Shown here piece after piece: positions 13,474 through 20,423 of a stretch of 51,013 nt of DNA. Numbering within the stretch: the stretch's first letter is position 1; each line of letters opens with the position of its first letter. The translations under genes were made by a program, and so were the position numbers. The notes under the pieces were generated by a model that was given only the letters and a program-made list of their open reading frames with translations, had not been told where the DNA came from and searched no databases. Source of the DNA: a virus; IMG/VR virus record IMGVR_UViG_3300020455_000019, positions 1 through 51,013 of that record. The stretch is one strand, 5' to 3'.

Positions 13474-14163
13474 TTAAAACAGAAGTGTTTGGGTTGCAGC
13501 AAGATGGCTGGAGTCGTATCTGTAGTTATCACCTTTGGGATATGGTTCTATTTCGTAAGCTAAGTTTCTAAGCATTTCTTTTTTATCCTTTTTTGTTCCT
13601 AGTAGATAAAAGTATCTGTGTTTTCGTGGTCTGTCTTTTAGATATAAATCGTCACCATAAATTGCTTTAAGTTTGTCAATCTTGCCTTTTTCTACTCCTC
13701 TGCCAGCGTGATCCATAACGGAGGCACTATGCAGATGTTCCATACCTTTAATTTTGTAATCAGTGCGTTTAGCGGATAAGCCTGTGTAAATAAAATTGGT
13801 GGCTTGATAAATATATCCGTGGTGATTTAGTGAGGTGTCAGCGTAACTGACTACTACAACAGGGGAAGGGAGTTGTTTGAGTGTGGATGAAACAAAGAAA
13901 CTTAGCGAGTTTTTGGGAAGATTATCGTTGACCACTAATCTATTTAATTCAAGAAAATTATCTTGATAGTGACCATTAAAAGCATGTTTAATTAAGGTAT
14001 GAGCAACAGGTCTGCCATAAGAGCAGATGCCAAGAAGTGAGTTGTTTTCATATAAGCCAAAAGCGTATGAGATGGATGGGATTCTTTTTGCGTAGTGCTT
14101 ATGTAGAAACCATTCCTTACATTCTTGATTCTTAATTTTTAGAACTTTATAATTTTTTATCAC
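13474..14163 (-). CDS. Mom-like DNA modification protein (GNAT-type fold)
   Basis: 229 residues. HKHYAKRIPSISYAFGLYE (21-39), LELNRLVVNDNLPKNSLSFF (71-90), VVSYAD (104-109) and GYIYQATNFIYTG (116-128) follow the conserved blocks of phage Mu Mom. Mom modifies adenine in DNA to protect it from host restriction. It overlaps the 14160-14600 gene by 4 bases, so the pair may act together. The resemblance is clear; the actual base product and substrate are not shown by sequence. Confidence 0.78.
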   Translation of the reverse strand: MIKNYKVLKIKNQECKEWFLHKHYAKRIPSISYAFGLYENNSLLGICSYGRPVAHTLIKHAFNGHYQDNFLELNRLVVNDNLPKNSLSFFVSSTLKQLPSPVVVVSYADTSLNHHGYIYQATNFIYTGLSAKRTDYKIKGMEHLHSASVMDHAGRGVEKGKIDKLKAIYGDDLYLKDRPRKHRYFYLLGTKKDKKEMLRNLAYEIEPYPKGDNYRYDSSHLAATQTLLF

Positions 14164-18663: not shown

Positions 18664-19047
18664 ATGTTTAACATCAAACTCGCAGTATTCCCACAATCAG
18701 CAGAAGATCACAAGAGGATTCGTAAGGACAAGTACGATGCAACAAAGAAGTATCCCGAATTTGGTGGGATAGCAAATGTTCCTGTTAGTGAGTTACCTGA
18801 TTTAATCAAGTATTTAACTCATGCAACACCTGACTATGACGACTATCTAAAGCAAGAAGTTGTCCCACTAAGGGCTAGTGGATATATGAATGAGTCGAAA
18901 GGAGGCAAGAAGTATTTAGGCTTGCAACTCACTAGCGATTACAACAAGCAACAGGAAGTAAACCAAGGCAAATCTATTAGCGCAAATAAAGACGCTGATA
19001 AGCCTGCTGTTCCTGAGACAAGCAAAGAGAACTCAAACTGGTTCTAA
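18664..19047 (+). CDS. Putative single-stranded DNA-binding protein
   Basis: 127 residues, last gene of the recombination operon. VPLRASGYMNESKGGKKYLG and LQLTSDYNKQQ resemble the beta strands of phage SSB-like proteins, and the C-terminus is polar and ends in an aromatic tip (ENSNWF) like the protein-binding tail of SSB. The assignment rests on these features and on the RecE-RecT context; no OB-fold signature is clear enough to be sure. Confidence 0.5.
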   Translation: MFNIKLAVFPQSAEDHKRIRKDKYDATKKYPEFGGIANVPVSELPDLIKYLTHATPDYDDYLKQEVVPLRASGYMNESKGGKKYLGLQLTSDYNKQQEVNQGKSISANKDADKPAVPETSKENSNWF

Positions 19048-19052
19048 TTAAT

Positions 19053-19145
19053 GATCGGGTAGCTTGTATTTATACAAGACTGGGATGGAATGTTCAGAAA
19101 GAATACAAGGAGGTCACGCAAAGCACCTTCATAAACTGCCCGATC
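19053..19145 (+). ncRNA. Candidate structured RNA, cloverleaf-like, about 93 nt
   Basis: A 10-bp closing helix pairs GATCGGGTAG (19053-19062) with CTGCCCGATC (19136-19145; one G-U). Inside are three hairpins: CTTGTAT/ATACAAG (19063-19078) stacked directly on the closing helix, TGTTC-AGAAA-GAATA (19091-19105), and GGAGGT/ACCTTC (19109-19130). A T-rich tail follows. It is not a tRNA: no T-psi-C or D-loop consensus. It lies between the SSB-like gene and the ParB-like promoter and may be a terminator-like 3' element, a small RNA or a regulatory switch. The strand cannot be proven. Confidence 0.55.
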
Positions 19146-19171
19146 TTTTATTACTTTTTCGTTACACAAGG

Positions 19172-19200
19172 TTGCATTGAGTTACCTCTAGTGTTATGTT
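19172..19200 (+). promoter_or_regulatory. Promoter of the ParB-like gene
   Basis: TTGCAT (19172-19177), 17-base spacer, TATGTT (19195-19200). It shares AAGGTTGCAT with the recombination promoter at 16425, so one regulator may control both. Confidence 0.68.
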
Positions 19201-19248
19201 GAGCATAAGCGTAAAGCTTTTATCTTTTATTTTTAATACTTATCTTCT

Positions 19249-20196
19249 ATGCGAAGACGTACTAGCGCAAAAAAGGCTCTTACTGCAAAAGCCAATCAAA
19301 CAAAAATTGCGAACTCAAAAGTTTCTTTTGAGATTGAATCTATTGACAAGCAATTAGCTACAGATTATTTAGCTACTAACTTTGAAAACAATAGAAAAGT
19401 TAGATCTTCTTCTGTTTCTAAAATAGTTGAAGATATTAAAGACGGTAATTTCCATTTAAGTTGGGATTGCCTTGCTTTCAATGAAGAAGGCCAATTAGTT
19501 AATGGTCAACACAGATTATCTGCTGTTATAGAAGCTGATATTCCTTGCTTATTTTATGTTTTAAGAAACATAGATCATTCAACGGTCAAGCATTTCGATA
19601 TTGGTAATAAGCGAAGCCAAGCTGATCGTATTTCAGTTCATGGGACACCAATGCACCCTAAAGCTTGTGCTGTTATTAAAGCTATGTTTGGCGAGTGGGA
19701 TGCTAATTTCACGGGATCAAGCAAGTTTGCTAACGCAAAATACGATGACATAATTGCTTCTTACTACAACAGACATTCTGAGTATTTTGAGCAACTTGAA
19801 GCTGATGGATATTTCAAAGCTAAATACATAGGTAACTATGTTGCAGCAGCTTTTAAAATTTTCTTAGAGATGAAAGTTGGTAAGGCAAGGTTTAATGAAT
19901 ATCCTCACGAAATGGAGCCTTACGAAAGAAGCACTTACTGGTTGGACTTGTGTGTTGACGGTAAATCTAAGGATACGATGATTGATTACAACACCGATCA
20001 AGCACCGTTCAAGCTTAAAGAAAAGCTAATTGCTAGGAAAGGCTTAGGTAAAACTATGTATGGGCAAGATGCTTTCAAGCTTCATTGCACTGCTGCCTAT
20101 TACTTTATGCAAGGTAGATGCCCAAATATCAGGGTAGACAACATGAAGTCTGATCCGTTTAGTGTCTTTAGAGGCATGTCAGCTTCAAATGTATAA
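19249..20196 (+). CDS. ParB/sulfiredoxin-fold protein (phage type)
   Basis: 315 residues. The N-terminal ParB-like nuclease domain shows FHLSWDCLAFNEEGQLVNGQ and the signature NGQHRL (85-90), followed by a long helical C-terminal part. Many phages encode such proteins; proposed roles include DNA binding and NTP hydrolysis, none shown here. There is no ParA, so plasmid-style partition is unlikely. The message begins after the 19172 promoter; a TATCTTTTAT copy and TTATCTTCT lie in the leader before the ATG. A 16-base hairpin element follows the stop. Confidence 0.78.
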   Translation: MRRRTSAKKALTAKANQTKIANSKVSFEIESIDKQLATDYLATNFENNRKVRSSSVSKIVEDIKDGNFHLSWDCLAFNEEGQLVNGQHRLSAVIEADIPCLFYVLRNIDHSTVKHFDIGNKRSQADRISVHGTPMHPKACAVIKAMFGEWDANFTGSSKFANAKYDDIIASYYNRHSEYFEQLEADGYFKAKYIGNYVAAAFKIFLEMKVGKARFNEYPHEMEPYERSTYWLDLCVDGKSKDTMIDYNTDQAPFKLKEKLIARKGLGKTMYGQDAFKLHCTAAYYFMQGRCPNIRVDNMKSDPFSVFRGMSASNV

Positions 20197-20201
20197 ATAA
20201 T

Positions 20202-20224
20202 GGAGAAGAACATACCTCTTCTCC
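20202..20224 (+). terminator. Hairpin after the ParB-like gene
   Basis: Perfect 8-bp stem GGAGAAGA (20202-20209) / TCTTCTCC (20217-20224) with a seven-base loop, six bases after the stop. No T-run follows, so it may stabilise the message end rather than terminate. Confidence 0.45.
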
Positions 20225-20254
20225 TATAAAGCAACTAAAATCAAATAAAAAAAG

Positions 20255-20380
20255 ATGATCCAACCTCTTGTTATTAGCAGCGTTATCAGCGCAATCTCTG
20301 TTGTAGCTGCAAAAAAGTTTCTTAGAAGAGAACCTAAGATGCAAAAAGTTCTTGAAAGGAGGAGACTTGATCCGACCTAA
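20255..20380 (+). CDS. Small membrane-like protein, 41 residues
   Basis: MIQPLVISSVISAISVVAAK forms a short hydrophobic helix; KKFLRREPKMQKVLERRRLD is strongly basic. It resembles small inner-membrane peptides, and the positive C-terminus would stay inside the cell. A-rich sequence before the ATG, no clear Shine-Dalgarno. Function unknown. Confidence 0.5.
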   Translation: MIQPLVISSVISAISVVAAKKFLRREPKMQKVLERRRLDPT

Positions 20381-20423
20381 CAAGCTAATTCCTTAGAATT
20401 GGTTTATCTCTTATCTTTATCTC

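Follow-up and report, generated by a model that had tools for sequence, protein, structure and literature searches.

The stretch of viral DNA analysed here (IMG/VR record IMGVR_UViG_3300020455_000019, 51,013 nt; hereafter the window) carries a 93-nt segment at 19053-19145 on the plus strand, between a recombination operon and a ParB-like gene, for which the initial annotation had proposed a cloverleaf-like fold, raising the question of whether it encodes a new phage RNA, a tRNA mimic or a regulatory or terminating structure. Its minimum free energy (MFE) of -28.6 kcal/mol was clearly lower than that of 200 dinucleotide shuffles (-16.6 +/- 2.7 kcal/mol; z = -4.46), none of which was equally stable, while the minus strand folded less well (z -2.05) and the plus strand gave z -2.57 when 20-nt flanks were added. 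A structured RNA at this site is real, and most likely regulatory, as had been suggested. We also confirmed the individual helices that had been described, namely a 10-bp closing helix (P1; GATCGGGTAG at 19053-19062 with CTGCCCGATC at 19136-19145), a hairpin stacked on it (CTTGTA-TTTA-TACAAG, 19063-19078) and two more stem-loops.

A search of the window against Rfam at gathering thresholds returned nothing. At permissive thresholds, however, 351 nt searched against all of Rfam gave a full-length match to RF02221 (sRNA-Xcc1) with 36.9 bits and an E value of 4.5e-5, or 1.5e-6 when the window was searched with this family alone; relatives of the window RNA in other viral contigs (see below) scored 35.5 bits (L002) and 31.0 bits (L008 and L009). 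The score of the window copy lies under the curated cut-off of 53 bits, and therefore an independent covariance model was built from RF02221 copies gathered by blastn with the consensus, by scanning viral and genome contigs for the core motif and with a looser pattern. A model derived with RNAalifold (R1) was limited to 7 pairs because MAFFT had misaligned P1, and it was replaced. An earlier, less well aligned model (R2) gave the window copy 16.4 bits and did not report it with default filters, so that its membership must be called distant. With the final model (R3; 75 copies, the window and its relatives left out) and filters off, 19047-19153 (+) was the top match in the whole window (24.1 bits, E 1.2e-4; runner-up E 0.47), and L002 and L008 scored 22.8 and 19.0 bits, respectively. 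The suggestion of a new phage RNA was thus not upheld, as the window RNA is a divergent, distant member of a known family, RF02221. Other genomes also contain copies that score similarly with the Rfam model (30-45 bits) and have recognisable P1, P2 and P3 helices, and in one 1.4-Mb genome (G107) 13 RF02221-like matches scored about 35-60 bits.

The fold of the family is a three-way junction composed of P1, P2 with an internal loop and an inner hairpin, and P3. The P2 internal loop ATACAA[T/G]ACC...GGAATA is near-invariant, with AATACAA...ACC nearly invariant in 53-75 members, most of which were gathered by the core-motif pattern. Two-sided changes were found in 19 of 22 pairs, 86.6% of cells pair, and covariation reached 0.526 compared to 0.184 after shuffling and at most 0.137 when slid, in an alignment that was fitted to the structure and leans towards it. 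Compensatory changes, which had been named as a check on the fold, are therefore abundant in the family, but none are visible among the few near-identical close copies.

The P1, P2 and P3 helices of this architecture can all be placed in the window copy (plus strand throughout). According to the RF02221 alignment, the 5' strand of P2 (CTTGTATT, 19063-19070) forms 8 pairs with the 3' strand AATACAAG (19102-19109), and the internal loop retains the conserved motif ATACAAGAC (19072-19080; family form ATACAA[T/G]ACC) as well as GAATA. The short GC hairpin of the family (CCC-GNRA-GGG) is replaced by a longer inner hairpin, P2b (CTGG...(loop)...TCAG, 19080-19097), and long inner hairpin variants of this type also occur in L125, L156 and L157. 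P3 is formed by GGAGGT (19109-19114) and ACCTTC (19125-19130), with G 19109, the last base of the P2 3' strand, common to P3 in the alternative pairing. It encloses the loop CACGCAAAGC (19115-19124), which sits at the position of the anti-Shine-Dalgarno loop of other family members, and is followed by the P3-P1 linker ATAAA (19131-19135), at the position of their second, upstream target-pairing segment. Directly after P1 runs a U-rich tail, TTTTATTACTTTTT (19146-19159), which judging from its sequence may be an intrinsic-terminator-like 3' end. The strand spanning P2 and P3 (19102-19117) reads AATACAAGGAGGTCAC and resembles a strong Shine-Dalgarno site, to which the P2 strand CTTGTATT is complementary; the resemblance is possibly due to chance, because no start codon follows. 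A conserved peptide beginning at the AUG at the P1 edge was considered and rejected, as the window reads ATG-ATC-GGG-TAG and the frames differ between family members.

Two folds compete for the same strand. CTTGTATT can pair locally with TATACAAG, giving the stacked hairpin of the initial annotation (about -26.6), or over a long range with AATACAAG, giving the family fold (about -22.9), and by nearest-neighbour energies the latter is about 4-6 kcal/mol less stable. The pairs of P1, P2 and P3 are all possible in the window copy, but the computed minimum takes the competing hairpin, which excludes P2. The four-way junction proposed before hence has the lowest computed energy, whereas the family-wide consensus supports the long-range P2 and would make the RNA a three-way junction, with which the four-way arrangement probably competes as a local fold. 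The close copies cannot choose between the folds because their changes are neutral to both.

Overall, the window RNA resembles sRNA-Xcc1 in aligning with positions 1-87 of 87, in its P1/P2/P3 layout and ATACAA internal loop, and in its TNATG 5' flank and U-rich 3' tail; it differs in scoring under the cut-off, in its longer inner hairpin in place of CCC-GNRA-GGG, in the loss of the 3' RCC and in residing in a marine phage and not in an integron or proteobacterial prophage. An alternative explanation is that this likeness arose by convergence in an unrelated phage RNA whose true fold is the four-way junction, in keeping with the lowest energy of that fold, the score under the gathering cut-off and the replaced core hairpin. 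However, two models give the same register and both match over the full length, the ATACAAGAC motif is retained, and the 5' flank (TTAATG followed by GTCGGGT, or GATCGGGT) matches those of family members such as L116 (GATTAATG followed by ATCGGGG), and we consider convergence improbable.

The genomic setting of the RNA was then compared between the window and related contigs. Upstream lies an operon encoding an exonuclease VIII-like protein (phrog_412), a RecT-like protein (phrog_561), an HTH protein and a 127-aa ORF (18664-19047, +) without a family match, which is assigned by position only to the ssb place of a cyanophage-like exo-recT-HTH-ssb operon; in cultured Synechococcus siphophages, ssb occupies this position. 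The RNA begins 5 nt past the stop codon of the 127-aa gene and ends 103 nt before a ParB-like ORF (19249-20196, +; 315 aa, phrog_5931, function not assigned), which lies downstream in the window and also in L001 and L002. Between the two lies a promoter-like TTGCAT-17-TATGTT (19172-19200, +), recognised by eye and not called in a consensus promoter scan; by eye, its spacing is retained in L001 and L008 despite a differing neighbouring RNA or gene. The window also encodes a Mom-like DNA modification protein (phrog_1384; 13474-14163, minus strand). The exonuclease is nearest to those of phages KBS-S-2A, S-H1 and S-CBS1 and the terminase to those of marine Roseobacter phages and S-LBS1, from which we infer that the host is probably a marine bacterium, perhaps Synechococcus.

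The RNA recurs in three other viral contigs (L002, L008 and L009), where it carries 1-4 substitutions, none of which disrupts P1, P2 or P3: an A to G change at P1 position 2 in L002 and L008 retains a G-U pair, and an A to G change in the P2 3' strand of L008 retains a U-G pair. Scans of viral contigs with inner-motif and P1 patterns yielded only these three close relatives plus chance matches lacking the family fold, a blastn search of phage and plasmid sequences with the region gave no usable match, and cultured cyanophages with a similar exo-recT-ssb operon had no match to the RNA model. In a comparison of the window with L008, the RNA shows slightly stronger conservation (95.7% identity) than the neighbouring genes (ssb-position gene, 91.7%; recT+HTH, 87.1%). 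In L001 and L010 an ORF takes the place of the RNA, in L008 the RNA precedes another gene, and L003-L006 carry the ParB-like gene but no RNA; the RNA is therefore tied to the upstream operon and not to the ParB-like gene. The region 3' of the RNA appears as a variable cassette slot (window 19146-20400; L008:1650-4120), which holds the ParB-like gene in the window and two unrelated genes plus a stretch of doubtful ORFs in L008, and L001 has a small ORF where the window has the RNA.

This location suggests another reading, in which the element is only the end structure of a 3' UTR, with the long GC-rich P1 and the U-rich tail terminating the exo-recT-ssb transcript and protecting its 3' end ahead of the separate promoter that serves the variable cassette downstream, and no target in trans. 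The start 5 nt past a stop codon, the immediate passage from P1 into TTTTATTACTTTTT, the promoter-like sequence retained before different downstream genes and the absence of a cis target (see below) are all consistent with this. Yet P2, P3 and the ATACAA loop would be superfluous for a terminator and match RF02221 over its full length, and the ORF in the slot of L001 and L010 has no comparable GC-rich structure. We regard this reading as rather unlikely, although it is the main alternative.

The function of the window copy was approached through the family. The P3 loop of RF02221 copies proved to be complementary to the sequence at the Shine-Dalgarno site of the gene that follows, and the sequences involved differ between loci. 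Across 72 non-redundant loci, whose loop sequences vary widely, the mean longest perfect complement of the P3 loop was 7.0 nt for the own gene compared to 5.1 nt for swapped genes, and that of the P3-P1 linker to the stretch just upstream was 5.5 compared to 3.9 nt (0/20,000 permutations in both cases, counts that are not exact probabilities because the 72 loci are not fully independent evolutionarily). Among copies that the Rfam model found in other genomes, the signal held, with 0/5000 permutations for copies above the cut-off and 100/5000 for those below it. Examples of loop and target are CTTTGAAG with CTTCAAAG followed by GAGG (L020), CGTATAAG with CTTATACG followed by GAGG (L026), and CTTTGTGT with ACACAAAG followed by GA (L089). 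The next ORF typically starts 40-60 nt past the RNA, and its product matches the anti-repressor Ant (phrog_245) in 31 of 68 cases; Pfam matches, of which a protein may have several, were to Bro-N (19), P22_AR_N (8), AntA (6), KilA-N (6) and pRha (5). Annotated examples include ant of Haemophilus phage Aaphi23, Pasteurella phage Pmp3 and Escherichia phages.

Some copies depart from this arrangement. In L057, L066, L125 and L157, an 8-12-nt perfect complement of the P3 loop lies about 15 nt past the RNA and about 30 nt before the start codon, not at the ribosome binding site (RBS), and three of these four have long inner hairpins or variants. Two RF02221-like RNAs (L070:4572-4665 and L023:3204-3280) lack the ATACAA core; by eye, their loops CCTACTG and CTGTTTG match CAGTAGGAG and CAAACAGGAG, respectively, both downstream, and these RNAs may possibly link the C4 and sRNA-Xcc1 types. 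As to the ends, P1 starts with G in 86% of family copies, and RCC directly follows P1 in 44 of 75 copies compared to 4 of 75 in a background window, as would be expected if they were RNase P substrates like the C4 RNA of phage P1.

In the window, the corresponding complementarity was absent. Downstream of the RNA, P3 plus linker had a match of only 5 nt in each of the window, L002 and L008, under the shuffled mean (P(null) 0.99 for the window). No 9-nt target was present near a coding-strand start codon in the window, no antirepressor (Ant/BRO/KilA-N) was found among the window ORFs scanned, and the copy does not carry the 3' RCC. Potential targets elsewhere in the window were rejected, as matches fell only inside genes or on non-coding strands. 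These results bear on the possibility that the RNA switches translation of the ParB-like gene (19249-20196) in cis, in the manner of antirepressor-linked members, since family copies normally control the following same-strand gene about 40-60 nt downstream. The ParB-like gene, however, starts 103 nt from the RNA and has a promoter-like sequence of its own in between, the 5-nt complementarity equals chance in the window, L002 and L008, and the RNA and the gene occur separately in L008 and L001; a cis switch is largely refuted and in our judgement very improbable. Orphan copies without a cis match exist in Xanthomonas as well, for example L081 and L192.

We slightly favour, at just above an even balance, the explanation that the window RNA is a divergent orphan of the sRNA-Xcc1 class, a C4-like RNA derived from the 3' end of the recT-ssb operon and acting in trans. 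In the proposed mechanism, an acceptor-like P1 would hold the P2 arm, with its conserved ATACAA...GGAATA internal loop, and the P3 arm; the P3 loop would pair with the Shine-Dalgarno sequence of the target and the P3-P1 linker just upstream of it, and translation would be blocked. For most copies the target would be the next gene, often a phage antirepressor. The window RNA would instead form the last, 3' section of the exo-recT-ssb transcript, with P1 plus the U-rich tail at its end and its 5' edge freed by RNase P or a similar nuclease, and would act on a non-adjacent RNA. Its target might be the mRNA of another phage (superinfection control), an mRNA of the host or a phage gene lying beyond the window.

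Identified in Xanthomonas campestris as an 88-nt RNA (PMC2996969), sRNA-Xcc1 was found in 2010 and was assigned no function, with genome-wide target predictions only. It has been reported in Xanthomonas integron cassettes, and it has so far been described as an sRNA that acts in trans and is connected with Xanthomonas virulence regulators. Our literature search, which did not cover the 2011 RNA Biology paper on sRNA-Xcc1, found no publication with both "sRNA-Xcc1" and "antirepressor". The loop and linker complementarity provides a specific, testable target for dozens of sRNA-Xcc1 copies. It suggests, with the case for and against evenly weighted in our view, that the sRNA-Xcc1 RNAs form a large, C4-type class of bipartite antisense RNAs silencing phage antirepressors, and that the orphans in integrons and in the window phage are immunity-type RNAs which became separated from their target gene and act in trans on other phages. 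The integron-borne copies would then be candidate anti-phage immunity RNAs and not dedicated virulence regulators, and the window would add to the orphans one from a marine, cyanophage-like virus, while nearly all other copies are in proteobacterial prophages.

Compared to known RNAs, the window RNA shares with tRNAs at least 7 acceptor-like pairs followed by TA, and the helix is acceptor-like as the initial annotation had observed. It lacks the D, anticodon and T arms as well as the 3' RCC, however, and in sequence it does not mimic a tRNA; a tRNA or tmRNA identity was rejected, with 0 genes found by ARAGORN. The sar RNA of P22 and 24B_1 of phi24B probably differ from the window RNA in structure and arrangement. 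Both are small phage RNAs described as antirepressor repressors (PMC12197685).

A close parallel is the C4 RNA (RF01695) of phages P1 and P7, which has three stems and two loops, of which b' occludes the RBS and a' binds upstream, and whose P1 is cut at the 5' edge by RNase P (PMC5320573); it targets ant mRNA (PMC12197685). The C4 RNA of phage P27, upstream of ant, shares the layout of the RF02221 family and pairs its P3 loop CCTTTTTC with GAAAAAGG at the ant RBS and its linker ACGCCAA with TTGGCGT. The RF01695 model had no match in the window, L002 or L008 records and did not match RF02221 copies, and therefore we claim only that RF02221 most likely functions in the manner of C4 RNA, without being C4 itself. 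Two phages, Aaphi23 (L018) and Stx phage P27 (L020), carry a C4 RNA and a separate sRNA-Xcc1 RNA, and in P27 each of these precedes its own ant gene. The P2 arm of C4 is unlike that of the RF02221 family, and the window copy differs further in having no adjacent target. Similar to C4, however, the RF02221 family has a closing helix with RNase-P-type edges and a two-part complementarity ordered as in C4, and is sited upstream of ant, which would place it beside the P1 C4 RNA as a second, widespread antisense class controlling phage antirepressors.
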